A stretch of 64,000 nt of DNA from Hysterium pulicare CBS 123377 (taxonomy: Eukaryota; Ascomycota; Dothideomycetes; Hysteriales; Hysteriaceae), in the NCBI GenBank assembly GCA_000467715.1, contig AJFK01000385.1, positions 1-64,000 of the forward strand. The letters run 5' to 3'. Positions 35,765-63,242 of the stretch are shown piece after piece. The position numbers and the translations under genes were made by a program. Every line of letters starts with the position of its first letter. Position 1 is the stretch's first letter. The notes below the pieces were generated by a model. It worked only from the letters and a program-made list of their open reading frames with translations. It was not told the origin of the DNA and made no database searches.

Positions 35765-36712
35765 ATGGCTTCTCCTCTTCTCCCCCAGGATCTCTCCCAG
35801 CAATCCACCCCGACCTCCCTTCAGACCTCCTCCTCTTCCTCCTCTTCTACCGATCTCCTACATACAATCGAACATCGTGTGGGCATCATAAAGAGAGCTT
35901 TTGATGTGATCTGCGAGCAAATGTTCCATACTCCAGTCATTGGCTTGGAGAAAGACACAACTATTGGAGTTCCCTGGCCAGTCTACAACGTTGATATAGA
36001 TGAGGAGGTAGAAAAGGAACTGAAAGAGAATCCTCTCAGGCTCTGTGCTCTTCGAGAAATGTCTGAGGAAGACCGTAAAGCTATATTGAAGTGGAATAAT
36101 TGCGACATGGCATGCTTTTTTATGTGGGATTGGATTCCAATCATTCTGGGAGGTATATTATGGTTTTATGGTCGTCTAATGAGAACAAAGTGCTAATCAC
36201 CTGTAGGTTACATCAAACCTGAAGAAACAACGTGGAAATTTGCATATGTAACGCCCCGGAGAGACGCCAAGCGCCGTTCACGGCCATACCTACTATCCAT
36301 TCATTCCATAATCGAGATATTACTGGTAGATGGAAAGCGTTTTATCATGGACCTCGCTGGGGAACAGTACGATTATGAAGAAGTTCTCCAGCCTCTGGAA
36401 CAATACAATCACAAAGTTCAGTTCTGGGGATACGACGAGCTACGCCCCATGAAAGAGGGATCACCTAGGCTTGACGAAGAGCTCAAAAGGACAGCAGCTT
36501 CCGTTGACCCTAGCCAAGCTGACTGGACGGAGCGAGACGAGTTTGAATGGATGGTGCGCTTTCGGTTGTTAACGATGCTCCGTGGTTGGCTCGACAAGTA
36601 CTCCTCTTCAGGGAAGACATACTCCGAGGATGCTATTCAAGAGCTACTGGAAGAGGTGGTAGCTGTCATCGGCACCACTCGTGAAACGTGGGGTACCTTC
36701 CCGGACCCATAG
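35765..36712 (+). CDS. Unnamed paralogue family, member A
   Basis: A protein of about 297 aa of unknown function, first of five related genes in this window. Exons are 35765-36152 and 36207-36712, with a 54-nt phase-1 intron. The Ser/Thr-rich N-terminus is followed by a helical stretch. Then comes DRKAILKWNNCDMACFF, which corresponds to RKAVVMWNACDNGNLFF in member D and EAILTNNYCDDGNWYFF in member C. The intron falls about ten residues after this motif in every member. Exon 2 carries IHSIIEILLVDGKRFIMDLA followed by GEQYDY, matching the H-S-I-I and D-L-S-G-A-Q-F motif of the others. The C-terminal third is predicted helical and charged. No signal peptide or membrane segment is seen. This is the most diverged copy and stands apart from the tandem group. 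Confidence 0.75.
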
Positions 36713-37155
36713 GACTTTGGGGACGATAGGGGTAGCTGCTTTGGGGTATGGTGGAAAGAAAAAAGAAGAAAAGGGGGTATTTGAAGGATGGGTGAGCATC
36801 TGGAGAACGTCCCAAGAAAAAAAGAGGAGGACCTCAGCAACGAGTTCGCACTTCTACGCAGTGCTGAGGACTAGTAGCCTGTATCCAGGCGAAGCTAAGA
36901 CGAACTCTCTCCATCTCCCTTGTCATACCGGAGCAGGTAGCGACACTGTGCGTCTTTGGCTTGCTCTATGGGAACGGAGCAGAAAGAGCTGGGGCTCCAG
37001 GACCATAGCCTTTCATTTCTTCACTACCATCACTCTAGAATTGGATTGCTGACATGATACAGCTAGGTTATAGCCTCTTTCTGGGGCTGTTCTTGGTTCT
37101 TTTTACCAGGGAATATATTTACATACAGGCCTTCCTTTCCGCGCTTCGCTTACTC
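36713..37155. other. Intergenic region between convergent genes
   Basis: Holds the 3' ends of family member A and the GH2 gene. A plus-strand frame (36681-37052) overlaps the end of member A and is not supported. Confidence 0.45.
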
Positions 37156-39792
37156 CTATCCAGCCTGCAATGTTACCTGGGCTCCTGTTAGACCGTCCGC
37201 GACTGCCGAGACGGTGATACTTCCTGTGCCATTGGCGCGCACAATTGCAAGGGCAAGGCCACTGAATGCTTTCCGCGTGTGAGACGGAAACGCGGTCATA
37301 TCAGTAGGATCCCCGTTGTCCGTCGAAACAATCTGGCCGGGGCCAGAAACGGAAAAGGTAATAGTGTTGTTTGCCCGTGGTACTGTATCCCCATTACTGT
37401 CAACAACGGCGACAGTAATAAAGGAGAGATCATCCCCGCCACTAATAGCAGTACGATCGGCTGTTATATTCAGTTTCGCAGCGTCCCCGACCGTTTTCTT
37501 GCTATCTACCGCCCATTGCACCCCGTTCTTATATGTGATTACGTGTAAGTCGCCTGGTTGGTAAGTCACATTATCCCACCGGAAACGGTATGTATATTGT
37601 GCCTTCTTCAGTCGCCCTGCTGACTTCCCATTTACAAAAAGCTCAGCTTCGTCAGCTGCCGAGAACACGTGAACCGGAGTGACTTGGCCAACTCGGTCGG
37701 GCCATGTCCAGTGCGGAAGAATATGCGCCATGGGAAAGTCGGAGCGCCAATGCGACTGGTACAGGAAGAAGCGGTCTTTCTTAAAGCCTGCCATATCGAT
37801 GATTCCGAAGTATGAGCTCCGGGCTGCGTCGTACGGCGTCGGCTCCCCTACATAGTCCCACCCGGTCCATACAAACTCTCCAGCAACGTACGGATATCTG
37901 TCCTGCTGCCCAAACACCTTATCTGGGGACGATCCCCACGAGGGCGCGTATAGCTCGTAGGAGCTAACCTGCTTGGCCGTAGGGTTTCCGCCCGCGCTGA
38001 CGCCGCCAACAGTCGCGCTATTGGCGCTCGTTACTGGGAATATATACGTGCCACGTGTGCTAAGCACCGAAGAGGTTTCAGTGCTCCATATCATCTTGTT
38101 TGGATATGTCTTGCGGAAACTGGAGAACGAGCCCGAGGTTGAAGTGCCCTTGCCCTCGCCCTGGTAGTTCAGGCCAATAATATCTAGAACATCAGCCATG
38201 GAGCTGCCCGGGGAGGCGGAGTTCATCGCTGCTGTAATCTGCCGCGTTGGGTCCTCATCGCGGACTATGTCTTTGAGCGCCTGGGCAATCGACCCTCCGG
38301 ATGCACCGCTTTGTTCGGGAATTTCGTTACCAATGCTCCAAGCGATGACAGAGGGATGGTTACGATCCCGTCGAATAAATGACCGGAGGTCCGGCTCGTG
38401 CCAATCGGCAAAGATCAAATGGAAGTCATTCGTGGTCTTCTGGTTGTTCCAGCAGTCGAAGATCTCGTCTAGGACCATGAATCCGAGTCGATCAGCATTA
38501 TCAAGCAACTCTGGTGCTGGCGGATTATGCGATGTACGCAGCGCATTACTACCAATCTCTTGTAGCATTTCTAATTGCCGCTCAGAAGCCCGGACGTTGA
38601 ATGCGGATCCTAGAGACCCCAGGTCGTGGTGATTGCAAGTTCCCTGGACCCGCACCGCCTGGTCATTGATTAGGAGCCCCTTATTTGCATCATATGTTAC
38701 AGAGCGGATACCAAATTGAGTCTCGTAGGAGTCGATAACTCCAGATACCCCGTCGGTGGACAAAGTCGTTATCGCGACATATAAATTAGGCTTCTGCGCC
38801 GGCGGTGGCCCCCAGAGTCGCGGGTTCGTTATTGTGACTGAGCTGTTGACAGCCTGTCTGACACTCGCTGCTACATTAGCTGTCGCTTGTGGAAATGTAG
38901 CCACAACGTCACCCTTCGCTTTTCCAGTTACTGGATCAAGTTCATACACCTCGGTGACGATATTGACCTGTCGGCTAGAGTTTCTTTTGTTTTGGACTTC
39001 AACAATTAGATCAAGAGTGGCTGATTGAGCAGAGACAGTTGGTGTTGTAATGTATGTGCCGAACTGGCCTACGTGAGTTGAATCGACCTTGACGAGCCAG
39101 ACGTTTCGGTAGATGCCCGCACCGGGGTACCACCGCGAATTATCCAACGCATTGTCTAGCCGAATAGCTAGCAGGTTGTCGCCAGCTTTCGCGTACGGGG
39201 TGAGGTCCAAACGAAACGAGTTGTAGCCGTATGGCCACCCGCCGACCAGATGGCCGTTGAGCCAGACCGCCGCATAGGACATGGCCCCGTCGATGTCTAA
39301 GAAAACTGACTTGCCAGTGTCAATATCGGCCGAGGTAAATGTCACCTTTCGGCGGTACCAGCCGACTCCATTTGAGGGCAAACGGCCCATCCCGCCGCTG
39401 ACTCCAGGCGCGCCAAAAGGTCCCTTGATGGCCCAGTCATGTGGGACATTGACGGTCTCCCAGGCTCCATCATCAAATGATGCTTGCACGTAACTGACAT
39501 TGCTTCCAGGAGGAGTCCCCGAAGGAGGCTGATGTTTAGCGCCGCTAACGAAGTCGTTGGCCGAGGGAAGAATCCATTGCTTCAGCGTGGTGTAAGACAG
39601 CGAGTCCGGATTCGACGTGAAGCGTGAGAACCTCCAGCCGGCATTCAGACTAATGCGTTCACGGGCCGCGGCTGCAGCTGCAAAGGAACGAGGGTTCTTG
39701 GATGCAAGCGCTCCAACAGATGAGAAATTCGCCAACAGTAGCAGGAGGATGAGCTTGCAGGCGGTATTTGCCATTCGCACGAGAAGCGACAT
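37156..39792 (-). CDS. Secreted glycoside hydrolase family 2 (beta-galactosidase-like)
   Basis: An intronless 878-aa retaining glycosidase, probably extracellular. The signal peptide is hydrophobic (LILLLLLANFSSVGALA, about residues 13-29). The order of domains fits GH2: an N-terminal sugar-binding jelly roll with VNVPHDWAIKGPF and GVGWYRRKVTF, an immunoglobulin-like sandwich, a TIM barrel with GTCNHHDLG and RTSHNPPAPELLD, then C-terminal domains of the DUF4982 and Ig-like types. The acid/base residue is E490 in WSIGNEIPE, and the nucleophile is E572 in IWSTETSS. KPNLYVAITTL and FVWTGWDYVGEPTPYD also fit the family. Beta-galactosidase is the likeliest activity, but beta-glucuronidase or beta-mannosidase cannot be ruled out. 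Lack of introns is unlike most neighbours and would fit an old bacterial origin, which is inference only. Confidence 0.9.
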   Translation of the reverse strand: MSLLVRMANTACKLILLLLLANFSSVGALASKNPRSFAAAAAARERISLNAGWRFSRFTSNPDSLSYTTLKQWILPSANDFVSGAKHQPPSGTPPGSNVSYVQASFDDGAWETVNVPHDWAIKGPFGAPGVSGGMGRLPSNGVGWYRRKVTFTSADIDTGKSVFLDIDGAMSYAAVWLNGHLVGGWPYGYNSFRLDLTPYAKAGDNLLAIRLDNALDNSRWYPGAGIYRNVWLVKVDSTHVGQFGTYITTPTVSAQSATLDLIVEVQNKRNSSRQVNIVTEVYELDPVTGKAKGDVVATFPQATANVAASVRQAVNSSVTITNPRLWGPPPAQKPNLYVAITTLSTDGVSGVIDSYETQFGIRSVTYDANKGLLINDQAVRVQGTCNHHDLGSLGSAFNVRASERQLEMLQEIGSNALRTSHNPPAPELLDNADRLGFMVLDEIFDCWNNQKTTNDFHLIFADWHEPDLRSFIRRDRNHPSVIAWSIGNEIPEQSGASGGSIAQALKDIVRDEDPTRQITAAMNSASPGSSMADVLDIIGLNYQGEGKGTSTSGSFSSFRKTYPNKMIWSTETSSVLSTRGTYIFPVTSANSATVGGVSAGGNPTAKQVSSYELYAPSWGSSPDKVFGQQDRYPYVAGEFVWTGWDYVGEPTPYDAARSSYFGIIDMAGFKKDRFFLYQSHWRSDFPMAHILPHWTWPDRVGQVTPVHVFSAADEAELFVNGKSAGRLKKAQYTYRFRWDNVTYQPGDLHVITYKNGVQWAVDSKKTVGDAAKLNITADRTAISGGDDLSFITVAVVDSNGDTVPRANNTITFSVSGPGQIVSTDNGDPTDMTAFPSHTRKAFSGLALAIVRANGTGSITVSAVADGLTGAQVTLQAG

Positions 39793-41402
39793 CTTTACTG
39801 TTGAGCATGAGCATTTCTGGGACCATCATTAGGAAATGCGTTAGGATCTTATTTAACTTTCAAGCTTGCTCCGTGCACAAAGTTGGTTCGCGGAGGAATT
39901 GCAAATGTGATCGACGTTCTCCCATTGGACCGTCTATTGTGAGAGTACTCTATTAGCATTGAGCCGGGTTAGAAGATAAAGAGTACCGGGATTTTCACGA
40001 TATACTTTCAATCTCTGGATGTTAATTCTCCGGATGTTTCTGATATTATCCGGCAACCCACCCCTGCATGGCCCCGTGCGTGCGAGAACTAACACCGAAT
40101 GTTCGCCTTGCCGGGTTTAAGCAGTGGACCGGAAAATTAAGAGAATTGCCATGACTAAGTATGGAAAAACCGAACGCTTATATCGGTATATTTTCGAAAC
40201 TCTCTAGGCCTGCATCATGAAAGCGGCCTACTCAAAACAAGTTGTCCGAATATAGCGTTGGATCCAGCAATGGATATTGTCTGCATGAAGCTACAGAATA
40301 CTGGAGCAATTCTCTTTCTAGATGTTACGTATGTACGCCTAGTAGTTCTTGTCATTGATGGAAATCAATTATTCTCCATATGTCCAGGGACTTTCCATCC
40401 TGAAACCTCCAAGTAGCCTTTTTCTATCGAATCTGCCGTCTACGTCTTAATCAGTATTAGTTTCCTCAAAACGCGCACCGGTGTGTGTAGGCATATATTG
40501 AAGGGCTCCGAAACGCAAGAGAGATGAGGGATAGAAAAATGAGTATGTTGGAACAGCTGACTAACCATCTGAAAGAGGGGATCTAGTATCAAGAGTGTGG
40601 ACGAGAGTTGATTAGTAGCATGGACGCCGATATGTCTAGGGAAATGGCTGAGATATTGGTATATTGGGCTTCTTCAGGGTCGATGGCATAGTGTAAAAGG
40701 GCGAGGAAAGCATATATGACACAACCAGTCATTTAACTTTTCGACGCGATGGATAGAAAAGAACTTTATCTCGCTATCACGAAACTATCTCTGCAGAGGA
40801 AATCCAAAAATCAATATGCGTTTGATCTATGTCTGTGAGGCTCTACAAAACCAAAATATGCATGAGAGATTCCAATACAATTAAGAACTAGCCTAAAAAT
40901 TATGCAACAGACAATGATTCGTATCTTGAAATGGCTTAGCGCAGATACAAAGGCTTGGCCTACATTGCCGAAGTGAAAGTAGCACGCCCGCACACACTCA
41001 GTCTTCTTCTACCACCAATTTCAACTTCAACTTTCCGAAGCAAACTGAACCACAAGGTACTTTCCTTCCTCTGTAACTTAACCATCCCCCATTTGACTGA
41101 TATGTTGCAGCGCCGCAATAGTGTTAAAAGCAACTCCAAGTTTTCGAGCCCAGCAGTGACCGGTAGGTCAAACCTGAAGTTTCGAAAAGGTACGATTCCA
41201 TTCTTCAACGCCCCATCTTGAAGACTGTGATTCCAAAGCTAAACTTAGTTAGATTCACGTACTGGACGACGTGTGCGAAGCGCACTGGATTTGTGCTCGA
41301 GATCTTGAAGTAAACCTACTGGAGAATATTTGCTAGTGGAAGTTAGAACGAGAGGTTTGTCTCGTGTCTAATTGAATTTCTTACTGCTAACGTGCCTTAT
41401 AG
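39793..41402. other. Long intergenic region with possible spliced leader
   Basis: No supported gene in the first kilobase. From about 41000, plausible intron signals appear (GTACTTTCC...TTGCAG at 41057-41110 and CTAACGTGCCTTATAG ending at 41402). They could belong to 5' untranslated exons of the open frame at 41403. Coding sense here is weak. Confidence 0.35.
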
Positions 41403-42422
41403 ATGTCGACCCCTCATACCCTATTCGACGACCTTCAGTGGACGCATCGCGCAATTCTTGGTGGCTTGGACTTGTCATCGAATTTGGACGTACCTTGGCC
41501 TCCCACTTCATCAATTTACACAGTGAATCCTCGCATCTCCCAGTCAAAGTCAGCATCCGGGCCCACCACAACCGATTCCATTGAACCCATCCTTTCCCTT
41601 TCCTCAAGAGTAAGCCCTCCCGCTCTCAAATTGCAGATGCTTCGACTGATTCGAGATCGTTGCAGATCCGTTGTCCCTACAAGTCTGTATTTTAAGCGAC
41701 AGAGCAACCTTTATGGTGTGAATTTTACCACGCCGGGAGGGCCATCCCAGTATAGTCCTCGATCTACAGGGAGAGGGCGGAGGAGCTTCTTCCAAAAGTT
41801 GGCTCATGGCGCAAAGCATACCCACAACTTTCTACACCAGACACGTGTTTCTCGCGCTTACCGCGGTCGATCTATCTACCTCCAGTACCACTGCAGGCAT
41901 TTCTTCTGGCTTCAGCACTTCTGGCATCAGTATCTCTGAGATCAGCAACGCTGGGGACAGTTTCTCGGGAATCAGTGCATCCAACGGATTTCTCGACCAA
42001 TTTTGTCTCCCGATTTTCTCGAGGCTCCAGAAAAGGAGAGCAAAGAGAAGACAGATACCTTGAGCAAGCTCATCGATAACTACGGACCCGGAGACGCCAA
42101 TGAAACCGATACATCACTTATCGACTGGAAATCCCATGAATGGGATAAATTCATCTGGCTTAGCAGCTTTAGATCATCCGGGAGACCGGGACATGTTCGA
42201 ACGCATGCCGTTCATCGGGATGCAATCAGCATTGCACCCCAGGCACCACTTCCACTTGGTCCGCCATTCGAATATGAGACACCACGTCCACGTTTTGCTC
42301 GTCCGCCAATATCATCGGAAATGTTCTCACATCCGTCCTCATATGGAGATACAAATACTTACTCCAACTCTCTCAACCGCTCACGACCAACTCGAGTGAG
42401 CCGACAATTCAAGAATGGGTAG
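41403..42422 (+). pseudogene. Hypothetical gene or relic, one in-frame stop
   Basis: The frame starts with an ATG placed right after a strong acceptor (CTAACGTGCCTTATAG). It runs 178 codons to a TGA at 41937-41939, then stays open in the same frame to 42422. The product would be basic and Ser/Pro-rich, with GRGRRSFFQKLAHGAKHTHN in the middle and LSKLIDNYGPGDANETD, EWDKFIWLSSF and APQAPLPLGPPFEYETPRPR later. The overlapping frame near 41870-42000 holds a Ser/Gly/Ile-rich repeat. A GTAGGTC donor lies right after NG at 42420, so more exons may follow. The middle part has a diverged nucleotide match at 53342-53442. I recognise no family and cannot tell whether the stop is real or spliced out. Confidence 0.4.
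41776..41880 (+). repeat. Shared segment, copy 1 (pairs with 53342-53442)
   Basis: Strong nucleotide similarity by eye over about 100 nt, including CTTCCAAAAGTTGGCTCATG, ACCCACA and AGACACGTGTTTCTC. Both copies read SFFQKLAH in the plus direction. Confidence 0.7.
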
Positions 42423-42909
42423 GTCTTGTTGTCCAAATTCTTCAAACATCCTAAGCTGAGAACTAACAAGATCTGTCAGAGGCTGCGGTGTTGGTAGGCT
42501 TGAACTTGCGAATGCACACTGCAACCCATTGTATCGAAAAGTTGGTGGGGCTCAGTTTGCCAGTGTAGAAGCAATGGAAAATGTGGTTGTTGTATTTTAC
42601 GTGTCGATTAACAAGAATTATTCTAAGCATTTGGTGTGCCGATATTAAAAACCATCATTGATGTGTCTGGAACGGAGTTTATTGATAAGTGTAACTTCCT
42701 AGACTAGAATTTCCAGAGCAATTATGAAGAGATTTCTTCCTTTCTTTTGACTTCTCCCTCCACGATTGTTATCTCTCTATCACCGTCCCTAAACTACCAC
42801 GAGCGTCCAACTGTCTCCGCTTCAATGTTCCTCCCGTTTCAATATTGAGCTTTGAAACTACTCCCTCTGCACTGAGCCATCACATTCTTTGTCTGACGTA
42901 GGATTTGTG

Positions 42910-43345
42910 GTCGCATTTGTTAAGGGCGCACCCATTGGAATAGGCGTGTAGTGAGCTGTACGAACGAGTACTAAGTGTTCTTAGCTTGCTTCTTGGGATC
43001 TTGATGAGTGTAGCACGGAAGTTGATTACGGTTGCTGCAGTTTTTCAGTGGGAGCGGCCATTGCCTGGTGCCAGACGCAAGTTTGAACAAGCGCTGCGTC
43101 GTCTTTTTGCTGCTTTTGATCCTGGTTCTCAGTGCTTCTGTTCTTCGACCGCAACTTTTTCGTGGGGCTTCGTATCGCATTTTTGGGAACCGCATCTCAT
43201 CGGAATAGGCGTGTAGTGAGCTGGACGAACGAGTACTAAGAGTTTTGTCAGCTTGAAATCTTGAGAATTGTGGCACAGAAGTTGCATTACGGTTGCTGTA
43301 GTTTTAAGTAAGAGCGGCCGTTTGCTGGTGTCAAGCGCAAAGGCT
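42910..43345. repeat. Direct repeat, two copies, period about 265 nt
   Basis: GGAATAGGCGTGTAGTGAGC occurs at 42937 and again at 43202, each followed by ACGAACGAGTACTAAG, a CAGAAGTTG/CGGAAGTTG block, ATTACGGTTGCTG and AGAGCGGCC/GGAGCGGCC. The second copy ends near 43345. The unit does not encode a clear protein. Confidence 0.75.
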
Positions 43346-44159
43346 GAAACTGCCGGCTTGATGGTGTAATCCATGTCGTGATCCATATTTTGGAGAGCCA
43401 TGCCGGGATTGCGCAGGCTCGATAGTGGTCGAGGTACCTTTTGCGCTTATGAAGCAGGCTCACACTATTTCCACCGCAGCCTTCTTAATAGCGTTAGTAG
43501 CTGGTGTCACAGCGCGATAGGATGAGGTCGAATGAGTACCTTGTTGGCTGATTGTCACACGGCCACCGTTGTCAACCCAGGAGTTGCAGTCTGAATCCAT
43601 CTAGTCCTCTTCCATCAAGTCATCGTAAGTTGTCATGAAGCTGGAGCCTAGGTTATAACGTCATTAACTGAACAGGGCTCCGAGGTTATTTTGGTTGTAA
43701 AGATAGGCCCTACTTCCTTCCTCGGGCATAAAGTAGGGGCAGAGAGTGGGAGAGATGTGGGTACGTTGATGAGCGGTTCTTGAGGTGGAAGTAGTGTATT
43801 GGCGCAGTGTGGGCAGGGAAATAATTTTAGCAACTTATGTTTGCGGAGTATGGCCTTGGCATTTTTACCAACGAGTGCGGTACGGCATGCAAAAAGTACG
43901 CGTCTCATTTATACAGCTATGAAAATATTTAAAGGCATTCTACTTTATCTTACAATGGCAGGCTCAATAACCCTTATGCTATCCTTCACACAATCCTAGT
44001 CTCAACGACTTAAAGTATTGCAGCGAGGCTATCCTGGCAGTACGAATGAAAAGTTACGGCTAACGAATATTAAGAAATCGATATTATCACAAGCCCAGGC
44101 AATTGGACACCGTGTTAGTATAGAGCTTCTTCCCACTCTACTCATATAAGAACTGGATA
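43346..44159. other. Gene-poor region
   Basis: Holds a minus-strand frame of 86 codons (43648-43908) with one CPHC motif. This is too little to call a gene. No repeats noted. Confidence 0.35.
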
Positions 44160-44543
44160 ATGTCTATAACAGAATCCCAAATTCTCTTTATCGGTATCTC
44201 CCAGCTCCAGAATCGCTCTCGCCTAACTATCGCCTTAAACACAAACCATACAACATCACGCTTTGTTCTCCCACAGTCTCAGCACGAAATCCATGTCAGT
44301 TGTATCTTCGCGAGAAGACGAATACCCAAGGATGCTTTTCGCATTTACAAAGGAGCGACACTAGTCGACATCCAAGAACCGGGCGAGTCGTCTACGAGCG
44401 TTATGAGCCCGAGTCGGGCAGACAAGTCTGAGTTCTGGAAATACATTATTGTTCAAAATCCAGGCTGGAGGGTACCACCATATCCCTCCACCCCCACACG
44501 ATTAGAACAAGAAAAAGGAGCTCAGGAGAACACTGCGGATTGA
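44160..44543 (+). CDS. Hypothetical 127-aa protein (uncertain)
   Basis: An open frame from ATG with mixed, protein-like composition (SQLQNRSRLTIALNTNHTTS, DKSEFWKYIIVQNPGWRVPP). No signal peptide, membrane segment or known domain is seen. Because the surrounding region is full of relics, this could be chance or part of a broken gene. Confidence 0.3.
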   Translation: MSITESQILFIGISQLQNRSRLTIALNTNHTTSRFVLPQSQHEIHVSCIFARRRIPKDAFRIYKGATLVDIQEPGESSTSVMSPSRADKSEFWKYIIVQNPGWRVPPYPSTPTRLEQEKGAQENTAD

Positions 44544-48520: not shown

Positions 48521-48754
48521 CATCGAGAGCTCTATTGGCCAACAACGACCCCTTTGCCAATAGGACCCAATCTGCAAAAACCAACATACCAGCGAAGCGA
48601 GACCCAGCGAAGTTCCATAAAAAGATAACCCAGCTCAAGGTATTTCATTTCCTCAATTACACCTGATACGCATCATCGCTATGCAAAGGACCACTTTCAA
48701 TGTACTAACGTATACAGACAGAAGCTTGAGTCTCGCTCCGAGGAATGCATTGCA

Positions 48755-49104
48755 GGTTCTTCTGGATACCGCTGGACAGGAGGATTATGACCGTCTACGA
48801 CCGCTCTCTTACGCTCAAACAGATGTCTTCCTCATCTGCTTCTCCATAGTCAGCCCTCCATCTCTTGACAACGTCAAGGCCAAGGTAACATGACCCCGCA
48901 GCAATTCAAAGCTGTTGTTCTAACAAAAGGAAAGTGGTACCCAGAAATTGATCATCATGCGCCTGATGTTCCCATCATACTTGTTGGCACTAAGTTGGAT
49001 TTGAGGGACGATGAAGCTACCAAGAAGTGTCTTCGACAGAAGGAAATAGCGCCTACGTGTCGGACAATGGGCTGTGAGATACATGCAAGGCATGGCGACG
49101 CGTG
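48755..49104 (+). pseudogene. Rho/Rac-type GTPase fragment
   Basis: Reads [20 protein letters not shown] and [20 protein letters not shown], which contain the DTAGQE switch II (G3) motif. It then crosses a spliceable intron (GTAACATGA...AAAGGAAAG, about 48888-48932) into [20 protein letters not shown] and [11 protein letters not shown]. This includes TKLD, the G4 guanine-specificity motif. These match Rac/Cdc42 GTPases closely. The N-terminal P-loop (GxxxxGK) and effector loop are absent upstream. After KEIAP the sequence departs from the family, so the G5 motif and CaaX tail are also missing. It is a truncated duplicate, probably of a rac1-like gene elsewhere. Confidence 0.8.
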
Positions 49105-50453: not shown

Positions 50454-51330
50454 CTACTCTCGACTGTCCATATCCATCACCAGAGCATCGAAATGCGCTC
50501 TTGTGTCCATTCCAAGACGGTAGAGGAACTGCTCGATGGCAGTACCCTCATCATTCCTCACCCTATCCTCAGTTTGCACCCATATGCTACCCAGAGGCAA
50601 CCGCTTGCCAACTACCCTCAATATCCGGCTCTGATACTCCTCCGAAGAATATACCAGCCTGAACCAGGAAAATTGTGCCCCACTGAAATCAGCAACCAGC
50701 TCTCTCTTGTCTTTCAGAGTCAATACGAACACCCAATGGTTTGACGTGTCTCCTTCTGGTGGGAATGGGCTGGTTATGAACTCCATCTCCTCGATCTTTT
50801 CTACGGGCCCTGACTCTTCTATGCTATATTAGTCATCTTGAACCACTACTGTCTTACAGGAATTACGAACCAAGGAAGAGTCGACGCATTATGTAGGATA
50901 GGAGAATTACAGAGTGGGCGCATTCGGCTGCCATGAGAATTGCTGTTTCCAATTTTCCCCGATGGGCTTCGTGGACGTGGTCTAGATTGGGCAGACCTTG
51001 TGCAATTCCCGGCACCCCATCCTCAATGTCCACGAGGTAGCCGGACGTCTCGGGATTTACTGAGATTGTAGCCTTGTGGGGAAAGGTGCTTCGTCTGATA
51101 GGCAAGTACACATCGAAGATTTCTTGGATGGCGATTTTGACATCCCAGATTATTTTGGATGCTGGTGACGCTGATGTAGAAGCTACCCGGCACGCGGTAC
51201 ACATTCTCTGACCGGTAGCTGTACTGCTGTTCACGGCGTTGTAATTGCAGAAGGGGCATGCTGGGCTGAGGTTCTCGGCTGGAAGCTCGATCATTCGTTC
51301 GATGGGGCGATTGGAAAGTTGTTCGGACAT
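50454..51330 (-). CDS. Unnamed paralogue family, member B, with zinc-ribbon-like N-terminus
   Basis: Predicted 277-aa protein of unknown function. Exons are 51330-50867 and 50823-50454; the 43-nt intron (GTAATTCC...ACTAATATAG) restores a single frame. Unlike the other members it has four cysteines early on, in CPFCNYN and RMCTACRVA (about residues 25-49), suggesting a small zinc ribbon. The pre-intron block is HRGKLETAILMAAECAHSV, equivalent to the W/N-x-C-D motif of the others but with C-A in place of C-D. Exon 2 has HWVFVLTLKDKRELVADFSG followed by AQFSWF, the shared hydrophobic strand and GAQF motif. The C-terminus is helical. It is the only member on the minus strand and lies 8 kb from the tandem group. 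Confidence 0.7.
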
Positions 51331-53017: not shown

Positions 53018-53180
53018 TGGCACACACCGTTGCTGATGGCAACTCATATTGCGCTGAGGTTTCTCGCATTGTCTACCAAAACATCAGCCAAGTTGGCAGT
53101 TACAACGGCACGACTCGCATGCAGGTGGATAACGGGCTCTGCTCACATGAAGATGTGTCGTACCCAGGAACTGTTTGGTA
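53018..53180 (+). other. Coding-like stretch of about 50 codons
   Basis: One plus frame reads ADGNSYCAEVSRIVYQNISQ and VGSYNGTTRMQVDNGLCSHE before a stop. Two Cys residues and N-glycosylation sites (NIS, NGT) suggest part of a secreted protein. No start codon or signal peptide can be tied to it, and I do not recognise the family. Confidence 0.3.
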
Positions 53181-53260
53181 GACAAGCTACGTGGAGAGGT
53201 ATGTATGCACTTGCAGACAAACATTTGTTGACTTTCTTTTGCTGACCCTTGATATGCAAT

Positions 53261-53600: not shown

Positions 53601-54294
53601 AGGCGACATTGCTCGAATGTCCAGTACTCGGAACAGGCCTACAACAATGGGCAGCCCAGTCAGCTTCGGGGTGACGAGGATGGAAATACATTGCGGGGGT
53701 AACCAGGTTTCATAGGATAGTAATGTCTCTGAAGCAGTGGGTTGGAGCTTTTGCATGGAGGATCTATGGGTCTTCCGAATGGCCCATGTCGTCAGTTGCA
53801 GAGATCTATTTCAATGAAGTTTTATACACAGTCATATTCTGATTTGAATGTGCCAGTTCCTGTGATGCAACGCGAGAGAGCCAAAAGTTCTCGAGAAAGT
53901 CATTGTGCAGTGTACCGCTTACTGTGATTGCGCAGCTGTTCGTCTACGATCCATTGTAGTTGCTGGTTCCTGTACAGCCACTCGATAGATATCCATTGCA
54001 AATATTTCGGCTTTTCATGAAGAGCCTTCAGTCGAAGAGGGCCTCACTGTGTTCCACCCCAAAGCGTATTTAATAAACGACACCTATGCAATGCACATCG
54101 TTCTGCACTTCCTTACTGGGTGATGTTGAATATCCTTCAAATCGCATCGGACTATACACCCAAACCTCCAGCTGCTCGCCGCACAACATCAACAAGGCCC
54201 TCTGTGTTTAAAATTCAGGAGCGAGTAGTACAGATGGGTTTTCATCATTGCCCGTAATTTTCATGTGAATCCAGATTAACTGCGCGGAGCACCA

Positions 54295-54699
54295 TCAACG
54301 ACGGGTTGTGGTAGATATATGCGCTGTCTTGGATTTTGCTTCAAGATCAACCCTTTCGACTTCATGCAACAGTGCACAACATTTCCACGGCAGAATTTCT
54401 TTAAAATTCACAGGCTTAGAGATGAGACTAACTCCCATCGTTGCGTGAATTTCCTGTGTAAATCCGAGTAGTTTCGATGGAACGCACTCCTTCGCAACTG
54501 GGAGTGGTGATCTTGTGCATTCCAGCCAATCTATCACCCTAAACAATACGGCGATACCAGTGGTCTCCCAGTTGGTATGCCACTCAAGGTTCTCTTTCAT
54601 TCCTAGATTCAGGACATCAGAGACGTGGTGTTGTTGCTTGGTTATCGCTCTTTTAAGATGCTGATTCGTCTTAAGATTCATGGCTCCAAACGCATCCAT
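54295..54699 (-). CDS. Hypothetical 134-aa open frame (uncertain)
   Basis: An open minus-strand frame from an ATG at 54699. The composition is mixed and partly protein-like (WETTGIAVLFRVIDWLECTR, GFTQEIHATMGVSLISKPV). No signal peptide, known domain or splice context was found. It could be a real small gene or chance in a relic-rich region. Confidence 0.3.
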   Translation of the reverse strand: MDAFGAMNLKTNQHLKRAITKQQHHVSDVLNLGMKENLEWHTNWETTGIAVLFRVIDWLECTRSPLPVAKECVPSKLLGFTQEIHATMGVSLISKPVNFKEILPWKCCALLHEVERVDLEAKSKTAHISTTTRR

Positions 54700-54714
54700 C
54701 GAGGGAGAGAGCAA

Positions 54715-55539
54715 CCAGGAGAGCCGCTATGCAGATTGAGGGTGAGGAAACTACGCCCTGTTTGATCTTTGATTGCCAGCCAGGAGCAAAGGGCCTTCGT
54801 TGGTTTGGAGATATCACGATGATTTCAATAGGGACGCAAGATAGTCCTATGCCCTAACTAGTATTTCGAATGAATTCTCTAACGGCCACGATATTACAGG
54901 GGGCGGTTAGGTGCAATAATAACACGTTCCATCTTTTCTCTTAGTCCACTATCTTCTGGCAATGAGGGGTGCTGTTGTGTTGAAGCTGTTGATATTGAAA
55001 GGGGTCGTTCTTCCGCATTGCTCCTACTTGACATGTAGATCAATCATTCGGAGAGTACACAAAAGTGCAGTAAGCGCAAGTGAAAGCACGCCTTCAGGGC
55101 ATGCAATTGCTGAGATTTGGCTTAGAAGATCAGGACCTGATAGAACAAATCAAACTAGAAGATCCAGGGAGCGAAGTCTCAACGTAGGGCTTTACCGGTG
55201 GGATTGTTTTTTACGAGAGGCTGCAAGGGCGCAGTAGGCGGAAAAGAAAGCGTAGACTCTGGGCTTTCCGGAGCTGTCACTCCTGGCTTACCGGTCCTTT
55301 AAACCGTTGAGTTATCCGCTGCTGAAGCCCCAGACCTAGATCTCCTTCCCCTTTAGGCCGCTGAAGCCAAGAAGCCGGACAGGGACGCTTCCACAAAGCT
55401 CGGGCCAAGTGAATTGCCGGAGGCGCGGATTTCGCACACAAAAGGCAGCGCCGGCTTCACTCCTCACTTTCTTCCTCTTCTTCCTCGCACACTTTTGCTT
55501 CTTCTTCAACAACAGTATTGTATGCTCAAAAGGCGCTCT
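54715..55539. other. Gene-poor region
   Basis: Short frames only. GGCTTTACCGG, GGCTTTCCGG and GGCTTACCGG motifs recur between 55184 and 55300, and a similar GGCTTTCCGG occurs near 57158, but no longer repeat is clear. Confidence 0.35.
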
Positions 55540-56188
55540 ATGGCGACAGATCCGACGGCTGGGTTGAAGCACTTGGTTATCAAAGGATACCATTCCTGGT
55601 CCTCATCACGGTAAGCCAACCTGCCGATGGTGGATTGTCAGGTTTCGCTCGAAACCCTTGGGTACCCGTGCAACAAAACTTTTTCTGACTCCGATAGTAC
55701 GCTCCTGGCGAGCCAGATGTTTCTCTACGATAAGTGGAAGTTAGGAGTCGTCTCTCTCTGAACGACTCCCAACACGCTCCATCGACCGGCTTTCCTGATC
55801 GTGCTGCCTACATTTCTCCTCACTTGCGAGGAAGGCCACAGCCACCTCCAGAACCTCCTCCCATGGACGCTCCACCTATGATGAACAGTGGCAATATGAA
55901 CGCTGTGAACAGCAGCCCTGGGGCCTACGCCTCCGTATGTATACTACCACATCCCACCCTGATAATCCGAACTGATCTCCAGTAGTGGCTATGGTGGACC
56001 TCCACCTCGACAAATGAACGGCGGCGGCAACTGGGCCAATGCACCCAACTTCACTCCACGAGGTAGTGACGCTCCCTACGCACCCCAACAGTTCGGCAGC
56101 TGGTCAGCCAAGTCAGGCCACACACAGAGCGAAGATTCGGTCACCCGCAGGCGTGAAGTGAGGATGGATGGCGCGGAGACGAATTGAC
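55540..56188 (+). pseudogene. Decaying gene for a Pro/Gly-rich protein
   Basis: The 71-nt first exon (55540-55610) encodes MATDPTAGLKHLVIKGYHSW and ends at a GTAAGCC donor. A typical acceptor region (CTGACTCCGATAG) ends at 55697. The following exon sense is split: YAPGEPDVSLR then a TAA at 55731-55733, and in the same frame SRLSLNDSQHAPSTGFPDRA and PPPEPPPMDAPP. A second intron (GTATGTATA...GATCTCCAG, about 55937-55982) leads to GYGGPPPRQMNGGGNWANAP and WSAKSGHTQSEDSVTRRREV, ending at 56188. Exon phases do not match at either junction, so at least a stop and a frame shift are present unless other splice sites are used. I do not recognise the family; the C-terminal part is disordered and low-complexity. 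Confidence 0.45.
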
Positions 56189-56287
56189 GTGCAGAGGTGA
56201 CATTGCTTCTTCCCCGTCAAACTTGTTTCCTATACTGACTTCTTGCAGAAGGGCTTCTTCAGCGACCACGTCGTCGTAACACTTGGT

Positions 56288-56692
56288 TGCTGAGGCATGG
56301 GGATTCTGACGAGATGTGCTGAGGCATGGGGATCAAGTCCCTGTAAGACCTCAAAAGCCCGGGCTTGGGGTTCATGCCCTTGTAAGACCTTCGGCAGCAC
56401 ATGAGCCACGTGCTGAGGCTTGGGGATTCATGTCCCTGTAAGTCCTCCCAATGCCTGGGCTTGGGGTTCATGCCCCTGTAAGACCTTCGGCAAAGGCACG
56501 ATAGTGGCATGCCACATCGTCGATCTTGGGGCAGCGCAGAGCTGCTGGCCAGATGTGCTGAGGCATGGGGATTCATGTCTCCTATAAGACCTCCAATGCC
56601 TGGGCTTGGGGTTCATGCCCCTATAAGACCTTCGGCACAAGCACATCAGTGGCATGCCACCTCGTCGATCCCCTGTAAGCCCTCAGACATTC
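56288..56692. repeat. Minisatellite array, three copies of about 130 nt
   Basis: Copies start near 56288, 56411 and 56554. Each contains GTGCTGAGGCATGGGGATTC-like sequence, then CCTGTAAGACCTC, GGGCTTGGGGTTCATGCCC and TGTAAGACCTTCGGCA. The two half-units are themselves related (TGGGGATTCATGTCCCTGTA and TGGGGTTCATGCCCCTGTA). The third copy ends directly before the next coding fragment. Confidence 0.85.
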
Positions 56693-56696
56693 ACGA

Positions 56697-57029
56697 GGAC
56701 AAGCTCGCTTTGGTTGGATGTGCTGCTGCGCAGCCACGCAGTAAGAGATCTCAAACCAAATGAGATAATGGATAAGCTAATATCTGGTAGGGGTTCACCG
56801 CCATAAACATGCCCAACGAGATGTTGTCACTGAGATCACCTATACAACGGTCATTGTTGCGGAGGTGATTGTTTGGGTTGATAAAGATGGACTGCCGTAC
56901 ACCACTTCAACTGAGGACGGAGACATTGCTTCTGCGGTGGCAAGGAGATCCAAGAGGAGGCAGAAGATGGCGTTGGAGTGGTTGAGTTGGGGGTTATCTG
57001 GTTGTGTTTTTCTTTGTATGTGTGCATGA
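56697..57029 (+). pseudogene. N-terminal fragment of a secreted cell-wall-type protein
   Basis: The exon ending at 56740 reads DKLALVGCAAAQPR, which has the look of a signal-peptide core and cleavage site. A 50-nt intron (56741-56790, GTAAGAG...TATCTGGTAG) joins it in frame to RVHRHKHAQRDVVTEITYTT and VIVWVDKDGLPYTTSTEDGD. This pattern is typical of fungal secreted wall proteins, such as SUN- or GH17-type proteins, just after the signal peptide. No start codon precedes it: the minisatellite abuts the exon on the left. After about 80 residues the frame ends at 57029 without a catalytic domain. I read it as a truncated gene whose 5' end was lost or replaced by the repeat. Confidence 0.55.
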
Positions 57030-57379
57030 GGTAGAAAATTCAAGATCATATCTCCTAAGCTTGACTTCTACATCAATGGTATCCGTTTTGATCTCTCAAA
57101 TGCCTGTATTAAGAGATCACAAAGGCGCAACAAGCGCAAATGAGAGCCCTGGCTCAGGGCTTTCCGGTGTTTCTACTCTGGCTCGATCAGTCGCAGGCCT
57201 CGTCGAGTAGACCCCGCTGGAAGCCCGCTTGACCGCCTTTCCCTACGGGCCTTGCAAGAGGGGAATGCGATGCAGTGACGTCGCTAAGGCTGCTCTGTGC
57301 ACGGACCACCTTTTTCGCACAAAAAGGTGAGTTTGATACGGTCCTAAACACTCACCAACAACAAGCTATTTTCACGAAA
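57030..57379. other. Intergenic region
   Basis: No supported gene; it should hold the promoter of the CaaX-protein gene. TTTTTCGCACAAAAAGG lies near 57311. Confidence 0.4.
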
Positions 57380-57901
57380 ATGGCCACTCACCACCGCCGC
57401 CACAGCGATCCGCTACCCTTCGGTAGCATGAAAGAAGTCTTTGTCGACGAGTAAGTTGATACTCCTTTTCCGCAGAGCTGGATCAGGCAGCTGACGAGGA
57501 CGTAGCACTTGGGAAGAGTTTACCACCAGCTTCCGCGCCGCCGACGATGCATACCATGAGATGCACAACAAGCGTATCGGCCGCGATGACCTCCTGCGCG
57601 GTTTTGTACGTAGCCTTGAGCCACTTTGACCTCTTACGCGTGCTAATTTTGATAGCCGGGTCCCCGTCCTGCCTCGCCCACCAACGCCTCTTTTGGCTCC
57701 GAGGCATCCGCCCGCAAACGCTTCGCTCGCCTTCGGGCTCTATTCAAACTCCGCCGCCAACGACATGATCACGACCGGCGAGACCAGGACCGTTCGCGAA
57801 GCCCAGATGATAGGGAGAGGGAGGAGGAGGATGGCGGCAACCGCGAGAACGGTACGAATGACGACGAACGCAAGAGAGGCCACAATTGTGTGGTGATGTG
57901 A
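57380..57901 (+). CDS. Small arginine-rich protein with a C-terminal CaaX prenylation box
   Basis: Predicted 138-aa protein of unknown function, assembled from three exons: 57380-57450, 57506-57605 and 57656-57901. The introns (55 and 50 nt) start GTAAGT and GTACGT and end GTAG and GATAG with good branch sites (GCTGACG, GCTAATT), and the frame is kept throughout. Exon 2 encodes TWEEFTTSFRAADDAYHEMH. Exon 3 begins with PGPRPASPTNASFGSEASAR and turns into a basic stretch, KRFARLRALFKLRRQR. It ends in an acidic/basic mixed tail and KRGHNCVVM. The last four residues, C-V-V-M, form a CaaX box; Met at the end favours farnesylation. The protein is therefore probably anchored to a membrane by a lipid and the basic patch. 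No G-domain motifs are present, so it is not a Ras-type GTPase. Confidence 0.65.
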
Positions 57902-57959
57902 GAGGTGTGAGGTGGAGTTATTTATTTTAGTTATGATGAATGAAAGTCTTGTCATCCGG

Positions 57960-58745
57960 GCTGGGAGCCCTCCACAACTGTCTCCACTGTGTACCGTGAT
58001 ATCTTGACCTGTGGGAGCCCAGACATTCCATCGATCCTGCCATGAGAGCTACAGCATTGATCCTGCTGCCGTCATGCTGATTCAGCATTGTGCCGGCGTC
58101 CTATCATCCCTCAAGCTTGAAAATGCAGCCTGATACTACTTCCTTTTGCTTTGAGAGTGCCCCAGAAGCGTAGGAATTAAGTGTCATACTTCCAACTCCA
58201 TGGAAACTGAATTTTGAACCAGGGAAGTCCCGTATGCTGTCCAAATCGTCCTATCAAGGTAGCTACAGTGTCCGCTATACGAACGGGCTGTGGGACGCTC
58301 ATCATTCCAAGCTACGCGCCCGGTAAGATACAGCGTAGAGAGCTGTGCATACATCCTAGATCCGTGATATGCAGCTTGTTCTACAGTCCTGAAGCCTAAA
58401 TTCAGCTCTCTGGACTAGGTTAATGCCCAGATATGTCATTCACAGCTCCATGGTAGCATGGCGTGAGACGTTGAGCCGGAGAAGTCTCAAATGCTGCCCA
58501 TATGGTCCTACCAAGGTAGCTGCGGCATCCACTCTAGGATCAGGCTGTGGGAGCCCCATCATTCCAAACTACGTGCCCAGTGAGCTACTGTGTAGATAGC
58601 CTGGCATAATTCCTGAATCTGAGGGATGTAGCTTGATCCAGAGCTCTAGAGCTGCTGTTTAAGCTCTCCCAGGCCTTGTAAATGTCTAAATACGTCATCG
58701 GCAGCCTCCATAGTGCATTGCGTGACTCTCCAGCCTTCAGGTGAT
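57960..58745. repeat. Tandem repeat, period about 250-260 nt
   Basis: Copy starts can be set at the CTCCATGG/CTCCATAG motif: 58196, 58447 and 58706 (the third copy is partial). Within each full copy the same order of blocks recurs: AGTC(C/T)C, TGCTG(T/C)CCA, CCTA(T/C)CAAGGTAGCT, GGGCTGTGGGA/AGGCTGTGGGA, CATCATTCCAA(G/A)CTACG, TGCAGCTTG/TGTAGCTTG, TCAGCTCTC/AAGCTCTC and ATA(T/C)GTCAT. A partial older copy with CTGTGGGAGCCC and CATTCCA lies at 57960-58150. No coding sense was found. Confidence 0.8.
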
Positions 58746-59273
58746 CATTCGAATGCGTTACGCTAAAGTCTTGGTTCTTCCACACTTTATTTGCGAACGC
58801 ACCCCAATTGACTATATAATTAATTTAATTAGCCACTTCCTTTAACCTTCGGGGGGCCCTTCACAGTTTACTCACTCGCATCACATCGTCGCATTACCAT
58901 TCGGGAATTAAGCTAACGTTCTTATGTGTCAACCAGAATCCGGACTGTTCGAGTCCCAATACCATCTTTTTTTGGTAGATTTTTTTTCTTTTGCCTGAGG
59001 CTTGGCAGATGAATGAAATGATCTGTCAGCGAGGTCTAAGAGCTGGTAGAGGCTTCTACGTGGCGTAGATAATTAGTTTATCTTTTTGTATGCCAGCTTA
59101 AATGGGTTCTGAGGCCGCTGCGTGGCGGACTTAGTCGTTTGGACGTTACTGGAGGAATGCCAAGACTGGGGAAAGGGGGTTTTGTAAGCGAGGCTGCCTC
59201 CGCCAAGACTTTGCAGCAACAAAACTTCATGGACGCAGCTCGCGATTGGGACTGAACAACAACACTCGCAGCC
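58746..59273. promoter_or_regulatory. Upstream region of family member C
   Basis: Includes a TTAATTTAATTAG tract, runs of T near 58968-58990 and, near 59149-59180, the block GGAGGAATGCCAAGACTGGG. A closely similar block, GGAGAAATGCCAAGACCGGT, lies upstream of member D near 60568. This shared sequence suggests the duplication included the promoter. Confidence 0.5.
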
Positions 59274-60232
59274 ATGGTAAGTAGCAGTCAAGCACTAGTT
59301 CTCAGGATCCTAACCGCGTTGTAGGATGTCGACCGCCGTATCGAAATTGAGCGGGTTCGCCATTTGCTATCGGTGCAACAGCAACAACTCCTAAGAATCC
59401 TAGAGATCACATACCCGTACCACATCGATGGAATTCCAAACAAATGCGATGAATGTACCGCGAAAGCAGGCATTCCAGTATACGAGATTCGTTGTCGCCC
59501 TGGATTTAGGCTCTCTGCCGGCACAGCGTACCCAGTAGACCCAAGCATTCCGTCGGAGCTTCGAGAGGCGATACTCACGAACAACTATTGTGATGATGGC
59601 AATTGGTACTTCTTTGAACTTTTTGAGGAACTTCGACAAGGTAGGCAATCGCAAACACCAACTACGACGGCATCATCGCTAATAATGCCACAGCCGAACC
59701 AACAATCCAGAAGGCCGAATGGCTCGTAGTGAAACCTCGTCCGGATTTGTTGATGAAGATTTGGAACTTTGCGCCATTTCACAACGGCGCAATATACTTT
59801 GACCACTCAGCCATTCTCTTGACGTTAAAAATCGGAGAGAACACAGAAGAATGGGTATTCAATCCCACAGGTGCCCAGTTTGGAGACCTGGAAATCCTAT
59901 CACCACTTGAGCAATACCGGAAGACGAGAACTCGTCAGGATTCTCCCTATGACATAACGACCGCCCAAGCAAGGCTTGAAATGATGAATGAAGTTCTTGC
60001 GAGGTATGGAGGGCGTGGCATTATTGACGAGCTGTATGACTCCATTCGGCATACCGGGGCAAAAGCATTCAGGGAGTGGAATACATGGCTGAAGGAAAAT
60101 GGGTTGGGATTGGGAGACCTAGGTGCATTAAACCCAAGAGAACGCGCCTGGCTCTCAGGAGATCTACTCAGGAGGACGGAGAGTAAGATGGAGATGCTCA
60201 TGGAGGAGACACGGGCAGCGCAGGCGTCCTAG
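59274..60232 (+). CDS. Unnamed paralogue family, member C
   Basis: Predicted 285-aa protein of unknown function. Exons: 59274-59276 (only the start codon ATG), 59325-59640 and 59694-60232. The first intron begins GTAAGTAGC right after the ATG, as in member D, and the second is phase 1 and 53 nt long. Exon 2 carries an amphipathic helix, two Cys in KCDECTAKAG, then SELREAILTNNYCDDGNWYF, the pre-intron motif. Exon 3 has WLVVKPRPDLLMKIW, then DHSAILLTLKIGENTEEWVF followed by NPTGAQFGDLE, then LSPLEQY. The rest is helical, charged and rich in Arg and Glu. No signal peptide or membrane segment is seen. It starts the tandem trio C-D-E. Confidence 0.75.
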
Positions 60233-60694
60233 GCCACAGACAGGTACTGCGGGCGAGCTAGGACACGGCGAGAAGGTCTGTAGGAACGATCGAGTAGACC
60301 CAGGGGTTTTCAAGTGCTTTCTGGGCATTTTTGCGCTTTGTTTCTGGCATACTACTACAGTCGATCTCCGTCCAGCGATCTTGACTTTGCAGGAGAGCAT
60401 GTAGAGCCTAATCCTCGTTTCATTGATCCATCCATGATTCCAATGAACTACTGTTGTGGCTGAAATCGACAACCCGGTGATTGAGGCCTACGCTCAGTTT
60501 TCGAATCTACAGTAATCTTTGTACGAGATCTGATAAGGCATACCCCGCAATGGTAGGGCTGCCATCATGGAGAAATGCCAAGACCGGTGAAGGGGTCACG
60601 TTGGACTACCTTAGGCGACAACCGCACCAAGACCTCCCATTGCATCAGCCACAACAACAAAGTCCCATTATTGTGATTCGGATAAAGCGAAACA
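60233..60694. promoter_or_regulatory. Spacer between family members C and D
   Basis: Contains TTTTCGAATCTACAGTAATC at about 60498, matching TTTTCGAATCTACAGCGATT at about 61903 upstream of member E. It also holds the GCATACCCCGCAATGG block near 60539, like GCAATACCCCGCCATTG near 61967. These shared blocks are probably promoter sequence copied with the genes. Confidence 0.55.
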
Positions 60695-61607
60695 ATGGAT
60701 CTGGACTCGCCTCCAGAAATGGTAAGTAGCCAGCTGGCATGCTACAGGCAACACCTAACGTCTCGCAGGAGGGAGTTCAACCAAGCATGCATTTTCGACG
60801 GCTATGCGCGATCACGTTTGCAATCTGGCAAGCGATTCGCGAAATTGTGTGTGAGATACACGTCGAAAGGATCATTCCGTCTACGGGTGCGGATACTTCG
60901 AATTGGCCCGGTGCTCCATACCCAGTGCTCGACGTACACACAGGAGGGATCAAGGAACATGGAGTACTCGTGAACGCACCACCATTGAGCCCCGAACATA
61001 GGAAGGCAGTTGTCATGTGGAACGCCTGTGACAACGGTAACCTCTTTTTCCAGAAGATGTTGGTGGACTTCTTGGACGGTAAGTGAACAGTTGGGCGCCG
61101 AATCAGATTTGTGTCTAACCAATTCTCATAGCGTGCCCCGAAGTTATCAAAGTACAATGGGTCAGAGTGAAGCCAAAGCCCAAGACTCTTTTCAGACTCG
61201 CCGGCACGCCCTCCGTCCCCACGAGAATGCACTCCATCATACTTTTCACGCTCACAACCGGCCGTCAATGGGTTTTGGATTTGAGTGGAGCCCAGTTTGG
61301 GTTCTCGCAGTACTTGATCCCATGGGAGGATTACATGAGAGAATACTCCCTAGAAACCCCGAAGGAAAGAGACATCAACTCGTTCGACCACTTCGAGCGC
61401 AAGTTCCGCAAGAAAGGCAGCATAACTCCTTCGATGGACAAATACGAAGGCAAGGGGGCATCTGTATTCAGGGAGTTGATGGCGGACATGAAGACCGAAG
61501 GAATCCCGGTCCAAAATCTTGCCGAAATCTCGAAGGAAGATTACGACAAACTTCTTGAGCGCCTTCAAAAGGAGATAGAGGCCAAGTTACAGGAGTTGGT
61601 GACATAG
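60695..61607 (+). CDS. Unnamed paralogue family, member D
   Basis: Predicted 270-aa protein of unknown function. Exons 60695-60721 (MDLDSPPEM), 60769-61078 and 61132-61607; introns of 47 and 53 nt are phase 0 and phase 1. Exon 2 includes helical sequence, then PPLSPEHRKAVVMWNACDNG and NLFFQKMLVDFLDG, the clearest form of the pre-intron motif. Exon 3 starts CPEVIKVQWVRVKPKPKTL, paralleling EPTIQKAEWLVVKPRP in member C. It continues with MHSIILFTLTTGRQWVLDLS followed by GAQFGFSQYLIPWEDY, the family core. The C-terminus is helical (ISKEDYDKLLERLQKEIEAK). This looks like the best-preserved member and the one to use as reference. Confidence 0.78.
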
Positions 61608-62104
61608 TGCATGCTTGAGCGGACACCATCTTGGGCGGACAGAAAGGGAGGCTTCGGAGGTGTACAAGGGGGATTAAGGCACATTCTTTCAGCCTTCAGC
61701 GCAGCTTCTGCTCCAGAGATCGTGCACTGTCCTGGCTGGCTGCCCAGCTTCATCGATCTTTGTTCAGCGGCCTCAAAGAGCAGAGGCTTTCATAGCGTGA
61801 GGGATAGCTGCTGGTTTCTATCTTTCTAGATCCATTTAGGTTTCAAATGTACCATAGGAGCAACTAGAATTCGCAGCTCCTTCTCCATAGAGAATACCTC
61901 ATTTTCGAATCTACAGCGATTTTCGCTTGCACAAGCCATTCGCGTTTCTGACGGAAGCGTGAAAATGCAATACCCCGCCATTGTCAGAGCTGGGGGGTGT
62001 TGGCCGTGTTGAACCGACACGGACCGTGAAGGTATTCTCACGCGCCAGCGTCGCCTGTCCTCTCAAACGCCACTCGCAACACACACCGCACGAGATTCGA
62101 CTCG
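61608..62104. promoter_or_regulatory. Spacer between family members D and E
   Basis: Carries the same TTTTCGAATCTACAG and TACCCCGCC blocks as the spacer before member D. No open frame here is supported. Confidence 0.5.
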
Positions 62105-63242
62105 ATGGCAGCGTCATCCGGGATAGAGGCAATGGATCCCCAATTTACATCGAATGCAACGATGCAGCACATGCCGCCGCCAAGGGTAAGCATGCACTTG
62201 AGCATCCAAATGGCGGTCATTAACACGATTGCAGACGAGTTTTACAACGACACAGTTGCTAGAACGGATTCTCGAGATCCCTCGGATTCAGTTCAGGGTT
62301 TATCGAGAATTGGCATACCCATTGGCAATCACACGCGTTACGAAGTCCGAGATGAGCTACACGGTTGAGGACCCTTTCGACGTTTACGACGTCGATACTG
62401 ACCCCCGATTCTATTCTCACGAACCGGGAATTGTGCATCTTTTGCCGGACAACCTCCTCCCTGAAGATCGAGAGCCTTTGCTTTACTGAAACGCGTGTGA
62501 CGATTTCGCCCGCTACTTCCAGAAAGTTGAAGCGGAATTGTTTGAAGGTATGTTGACCCAGCGCTGAGAGACCCCGAAGTCATCGTCTAACCAGATGAAA
62601 GGCAGTCGACATATAAAATGTTACTGGGAGAAAGCTCCAGTGGTCCCGAAGAGAGTCCAAAAGTATAGCGACGATGACGAGGTACCTCGAATGATGCACT
62701 CATTCATACGCATCACAGCCACAAACCTCCGCACCGGCCCTCCAAAATGGGAATGGATTTTCGATCCTACCGGAATACAATTTCGGTTCCCCGAGACATT
62801 GGTATGGTCGACGACCTACAGATCGACGCGAATAGACTGGGACGCAGGGGAACTTTTCCCAGTCGACCAAAACGAGGAGCGACGGGAGTTAGAGGAAGTG
62901 GGTGCATACGGCCATTACATCGATTCCATCTGGGAAATGGCTGCATGGGCCTTGAGGGAGTGGAAAATGTTTCTGGGTTGCCGCTTGCCCATTCTGATCA
63001 GACTCCCCGAGCCTGAGTACAGGATGCTATTGGAGGATTTGGAAGTGAGAACGAGATCATGGATCCAGGGATATTTAGACAGTTCTGGAACTTGTGTTTT
63101 CAAAGATGGAGTTCAGTTTAGTGGTCCCAGATGTCCGGTTCCTGTGTCAGTCTGGAATTCAAGCTGGGTGTGTACAGCGGAAAAGGCGTTTGGAAGGCTT
63201 CTCAATCGCCAAGGTTGCGTTATCTGGCGGCAAGATGCATAG
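62105..63242 (+). pseudogene. Unnamed paralogue family, member E (broken)
   Basis: Third gene of the tandem trio. Exon 1 (62105-62185, or from the in-frame ATG at 62132) and exon 2 (62235-62547) splice in phase 0. Exon 2 ends with LLPEDREPLLY, then TGA, then NACDDFARYFQKVEAELFEG. The stop falls where member D has Trp (MWNACD), so a TGG-to-TGA change is likely. At the next junction the usual acceptor (CTAACCAG, ending 62594) gives the wrong frame; only AAAG at 62601 keeps it, which hints at an added one-base indel. The last exon has HIKCYWEKAPVVPKRVQ and RMMHSFIRITATNLRTG, then WEWIFDPTGIQFRFPETL, the core motif. The frame then runs about 50 residues beyond the end point of its siblings. Confidence 0.7.

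Follow-up and report, generated by a model that had tools for sequence, protein, structure and literature searches.

A tandem array of divergent genes in Hysterium pulicare related to MYND-linked proteins and probably papain-like in fold

Results

Relationship of the window genes to MYND-linked proteins

In a stretch of 64,000 nucleotides of Hysterium pulicare CBS 123377 (contig AJFK01000385.1, positions 1 to 64,000; hereafter the window), a first-pass annotation had noted five two-part genes with a conserved intron and a GAQF core. Profile comparisons showed, at the level of sequence, that these genes belong, as a MYND-less branch, to a family in which the same domain is linked to a MYND finger. 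The best explanation of the whole combines this relationship with a papain-like fold and with a predicted role of the intact copies as thiol enzymes, and we favour it with moderate confidence. The window corresponds to the first 64,000 positions of a 177 kb contig (C300), and the genome searched comprised 596 contigs (37.2 Mb). The five window genes were named g1-g5 by position, and the next two copies downstream m6 and m7.

Five genes of the genome fuse the domain to a MYND finger in one reading frame: C300:80.7-79.6k (C300:80k), C300:86.8-85.6k (C300:86k), C323, C399 and C451. The gene C399 (C399:2141-4049, - strand) has two domain modules flanking one MYND finger, the first without and the second with the Cys discussed below. 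In hhalign, a window-type profile built from six copies (g1-g4, m6, and m7) matched a MYND-linked profile (C323, the two C399 modules, the protein P0016, and part of P0014) at 98.1% over 236 columns, with an expectation value (E) of 9.5e-14, and matched three other MYND-bearing genes at 96.4% over 111 columns (E 1.2e-9); reversed-profile controls reached 0.0-0.2%. It is from these matches that the MYND-less branch is deduced. No match to the MYND finger (PF01753) was obtained in g1, g2, g3, and g4, nor in g5, of which the second part alone was scanned. Two Cys pairs at the N terminus of g2 may represent half a MYND finger; the zinc-ribbon match of this gene was weak (E 0.05) and no proof of it. 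At least 18 MYND-like places were counted in the genome, at least 16 of them above the Pfam cut-off (two of these solely with neighbouring matches), both counts being lower bounds from a scan that scored 20 candidates.

Family membership and copy number

Membership of the window genes in a single family is virtually certain. As a chance test, profiles of the second part were built from seven copies, each omitted in turn, and run against 5042 stop-to-stop open reading frames (ORFs) of C300 and C399. Each window gene was recovered at rank 7 or 8, with the leave-one-out E given in the following list, where nt stands for nucleotides.

35765..36152, + strand: first part of g1, with the Cys motif RKAILKWNNCD (E 9.2e-30 with the whole-family profile, in which g1 itself was included)
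36153..36206, + strand: intron of g1, 54 nt, phase 1
36207..36712, + strand: second part of g1, HSIIEI ... FIMDLAGEQY (leave-one-out E 2.5e-9)
50867..51330, - strand: first part of g2, with the N terminus C-x2-C .. C-x2-C
50824..50866, - strand: intron of g2, 43 nt, best reading phase 2
50454..50823, - strand: second part of g2, HWVFVL ... VADFSGAQFS (leave-one-out E 6.1e-5)
59274..60232, + strand: g3, exons 59274-59276, 59325-59640, and 59694-60232, introns of 48 nt (phase 0) and 53 nt (phase 1) (leave-one-out E 4.2e-18)
60695..61607, + strand: g4, exons 60695-60721, 60769-61078, and 61132-61607, introns of 47 nt (phase 0) and 53 nt (phase 1) (leave-one-out E 2.9e-29)
62105..63242, + strand: g5, a broken copy, first intron 62186-62234 (leave-one-out E 8.2e-11 for the second part)
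63979..64000, + strand: start of m6, the sixth copy (gene model), inside the window; its end lies at about C300:65040
C300:65481, + strand: start of m7, the seventh copy (gene model)

The three best other ORFs of each run came from C300:79.6k or C399, sites of further family genes; C399:1777-2172, whose membership in the domain is unproven, was among them. The coordinates and the homology proposed in the first-pass annotation were right; the leave-one-out profiles united all five genes instead of splitting them into unrelated known families. Its figure of five members was too low: the family has nine genes on C300 and at least 12 in the genome, and the three family profiles that were run scored no additional C300 ORF below E 0.1. 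The tandem copies and high divergence that the annotation described were also found: g3, g1, and g2 are only 27, 25, and 20% identical to g4, respectively. Predicted proteins have 297, 277, 285, and 270 amino acids for g1, g2, g3, and g4, respectively.

A tree of 13 modules, from which g5 was omitted, grouped the array copies g3, g4, m6, and m7 with support 79/81; one of its ten inner branches was starred. In this tree g2 paired with C300:80k, a join flagged as a possible long-branch artefact, so that no family history is argued from it.

Introns, core motifs and damaged copies

The main intron is GT..AG, in phase 1 and 48-54 nt long in g1, g3, g4, m6, and m7. Among 11 modelled modules, all from the source genome and not including g5, it lies exactly 16 codons past the Cys column and in phase 1 in nine, these five copies included. 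The exceptions are C300:80k, at 20 codons, and g2, at 17 codons and in phase 2, for which visual inspection would also allow phase 1 with an unusual donor. The conserved intron place that had been reported thus held for g1, g3, and g4 but not for g2. Since the main intron is alike in MYND-bearing and MYND-less genes, it is an ancestral mark of the domain. An extra phase-0 intron of 47-49 nt is found near the start of g3, g4, g5, m6, and m7.

The reported core motifs applied to some of the copies. The motif RKAx3WNxCD..FF fits g4, whereas g1 has one residue fewer before FF, g3 follows it loosely (REAILTNNYCD), g2 reads ETAILMAAECAH, and that of g5 is interrupted by a stop. The W-x-x-V-K-P start of the second part is present only in g3 and g4 (two of the five genes), and the GAQF core is replaced by GEQY in g1 and by GIQF in g5.

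The dead copy that had been noted is g5, with an in-frame TGA at 62487-62489, inside the Cys motif. Its second part is still open (HSFIRI ... WIFDPTGIQF); CAG acceptors that give its main intron the usual length (47 or 58 nt) break the frame, and frame-keeping acceptors are AAG at 54 nt or CAG at 93 nt. The copy m7 is cut short by a TGA at C300:66297-66299, where its siblings read on. Together with the unusual intron of g2, the interrupted g5 and the shortened m7 could be taken for a decaying cluster in which little function remains. We consider this very improbable, given that full frames and the Cys, His, and Asp/Asn residues described below are preserved in g1, g3, g4, and m6, whose GT..AG introns stand where the family has them; such conservation at very high divergence suggests selection.

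Conserved residues, predicted fold and proposed mechanism

Of the 13 aligned modules, nine have Cys, 12 His, all 13 Asp/Asn, and 12 Gln; in C300, the eight modules whose motif is open each carry all four residues. In g4 they are C96, H146, D162, and Q167. The triad columns of g3 hold Cys, His, and Asn; papain itself uses Asn in its triad. The order Cys, His, Asp/Asn is shared by g1, g2, g3, and g4, with a His-Asp spacing of 16-19 that does not imply spatial closeness. Cys was lost in four of the 13 modules: C323 (R), the first C399 module (S), C451 (S), and P0016 (G).

This residue pattern and a low-confidence structure model make a papain/transglutaminase-like fold probable. A second model, of g1 (alignment A8, seven rows, with an 18-residue intron-derived insert), was rejected with a predicted local distance difference test of 46 and a predicted template modelling score of 0.30; it was kept in the structural comparison as a control, a weak one, as it belongs to the same family, is mostly helical and aligned mainly over the last 70 residues. 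Alignments A3, A5, A6, and A7, in which first-part pieces were misplaced, were excluded from modelling.

In the mechanism that we propose, a helix in the first part would begin with the Cys, and the second part would supply a His strand and a strand bearing Asp/Asn (in WVxDLSGAQ, its D); the intron falls between the two parts. The intact window copies retain Cys, His, and Asp/Asn and are for this reason predicted to be thiol enzymes that work inside the cell on a protein substrate, as a peptidase, amidase, or acyl-transferase; for actual catalysis by the Cys-bearing copies we would claim slightly less than an even chance. The Cys-less relatives would probably be pseudo-enzymes, with binding as their only activity. 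The ancestral MYND finger would bring the domain to its partner, and the array copies would have lost it and diversified through duplication and decay.

The same residues could be explained differently if the domain were a non-enzymatic protein-binding module throughout the MYND-linked family, with His, Asp, and Gln structural and the window Cys incidental. MYND fingers are peptide binders, and three of the four modules that lost Cys retained both His and Gln, which would favour such a module; the retention of Cys in all eight open C300 modules at low identity, and the position of its column just before a helix, as in thiol enzymes, speak against it. We regard the binding module as a serious alternative, if a rather less probable one. 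Should the papain-like reading be correct, a class of hypothetical proteins annotated by MYND alone, with a large unnamed part, would open to standard thiol-enzyme assays, and the Cys-bearing array copies beside their Cys-less relatives would allow enzyme and pseudo-enzyme to be compared as they occur in nature.

Homologues in other organisms and database searches

With C399 as query, 17 matching proteins were found outside the genome: 13 from jgi/lgn collections, three from Parastagonospora nodorum, and one from Paraphaeosphaeria sporulosa. Those that are named are hypothetical proteins. Members in related fungi, as had been anticipated, therefore exist in other ascomycetes. The sequence CASRC is present in the second module of 12 of the 13 jgi/lgn homologues; the remaining one, P0013, stops short of the site. 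The P. nodorum models P0014, P0015, and P0017 differ by inner deletions and seemingly skip the MYND finger and the second first-part; these differences may reflect annotation or alternative splicing.

In the Pfam and NCBIfam scans the domain fell into no named family, in agreement with the first-pass annotation, and the window copies gave no significant match in either; of the seven proteins scanned against NCBIfam, only two had weak matches, far below the cut-off (E ≥ 0.035). A protein search with g4 alone returned nothing at E up to 10 (394 candidates). A profile search with alignment A2 (seven of the 13 modules) returned nothing at E up to 1 (4451 candidates) and also missed its own row P0016, so it is no evidence of absence. 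Alignment A4 held 21 rows; of the 17 homologues it lacked only P0008, which is nearly identical to P0007, and the window first-part pieces were left out. Pattern matches with these two alignments numbered 17 in bacterial and archaeal contigs and two in viral contigs, none of which tblastn confirmed, and a viral structure comparison gave none below E 0.001. In the open-access literature searched, no paper described the domain in its title or the start of its abstract. The reading as an undescribed family is thus partly supported: the domain is unnamed, yet it has relatives that carry the known MYND finger, and a superfamily can probably be assigned to it.

Upstream elements and neighbouring genes

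Two elements are common to the upstream regions of g4 and g5.

60541..60548, + strand: the 8-mer TACCCCGC, 154 bases before g4

The same 8-mer stands at position 61971, 134 bases before g5, and TTTTCGAATCTACAG lies 197 bases before g4 and 203 bases before g5. Over the 177 kb of the contig there are two occurrences of the core TTCGAATCTACAG and five of TACCCCGC. These shared elements suggest that the promoter region was copied along with the gene in duplication. A third TACCCCGC was seen at C300:63511, 468 bases before m6, and two others at 15369 and 32692.

Other frames of the window include a 725-residue frame with a HET domain (PF06985, E 5.8e-28) at 7105-9279 (- strand), about 26 kb from g1; a chitin synthase frame (PF01644) at 17296-20802 (+ strand), followed by a 416-residue frame for which Pfam gave nothing at E 0.001; a large glycoside hydrolase family 2 frame at 37159-39825 (- strand), between g1 and g2; and a Ras-family frame (PF00071, E 2.5e-11) at 48621-48890 (+ strand), near g2.

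Discussion

The self/non-self role put forward in the first-pass annotation is speculative, and its support circumstantial. An array of fast-turnover copies that set compatibility or fight mobile elements would agree with the tandem arrangement, the strong divergence, the broken g5 and the shortened m7, and with the HET-domain gene in the window. HET genes, however, are common in such genomes, g1-g4 gave no match to a HET, NACHT, or HeLo domain, and a single genome stands behind the reading. We consider an allorecognition or conflict locus unlikely, even with the SET-MYND protein HET-Va as a precedent (PMC9262711). Still less likely is the wider scenario of a fast-evolving fungal thiol-enzyme family born with MYND, freed from it in a tandem array, and acting through active and Cys-less forms in self/non-self recognition or intragenomic conflict.

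Three known systems invite comparison with the MYND-less branch. Proteins of the C399 type, including those of P. nodorum and P. sporulosa, share the two-part domain over most of its length and the GAQF core, and C399 shares the phase-1 intron; they differ in that C399 combines a MYND finger with two modules per protein, the first Cys-less, whereas window copies have one module, with Cys and without a complete MYND finger. The papain/transglutaminase-like superfamily (NTAQ1, arylamine N-acetyltransferases, vasohibins) has no detectable sequence or profile similarity to the window domain, which differs from it by an extra conserved Gln five residues past the Asp. In the SET-MYND protein HET-Va of Podospora anserina, V/V1 incompatibility requires the catalytic Tyr, whereas the R/V vegetative reaction does not (PMC9262711). 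HET-Va resembles the present family as a fungal protein that couples an enzyme domain to MYND, and its locus differs between strains or species by missing genes and pseudogenes (PMC9262711); its enzyme is a SET methyltransferase, and we do not propose that it is homologous to the window domain.
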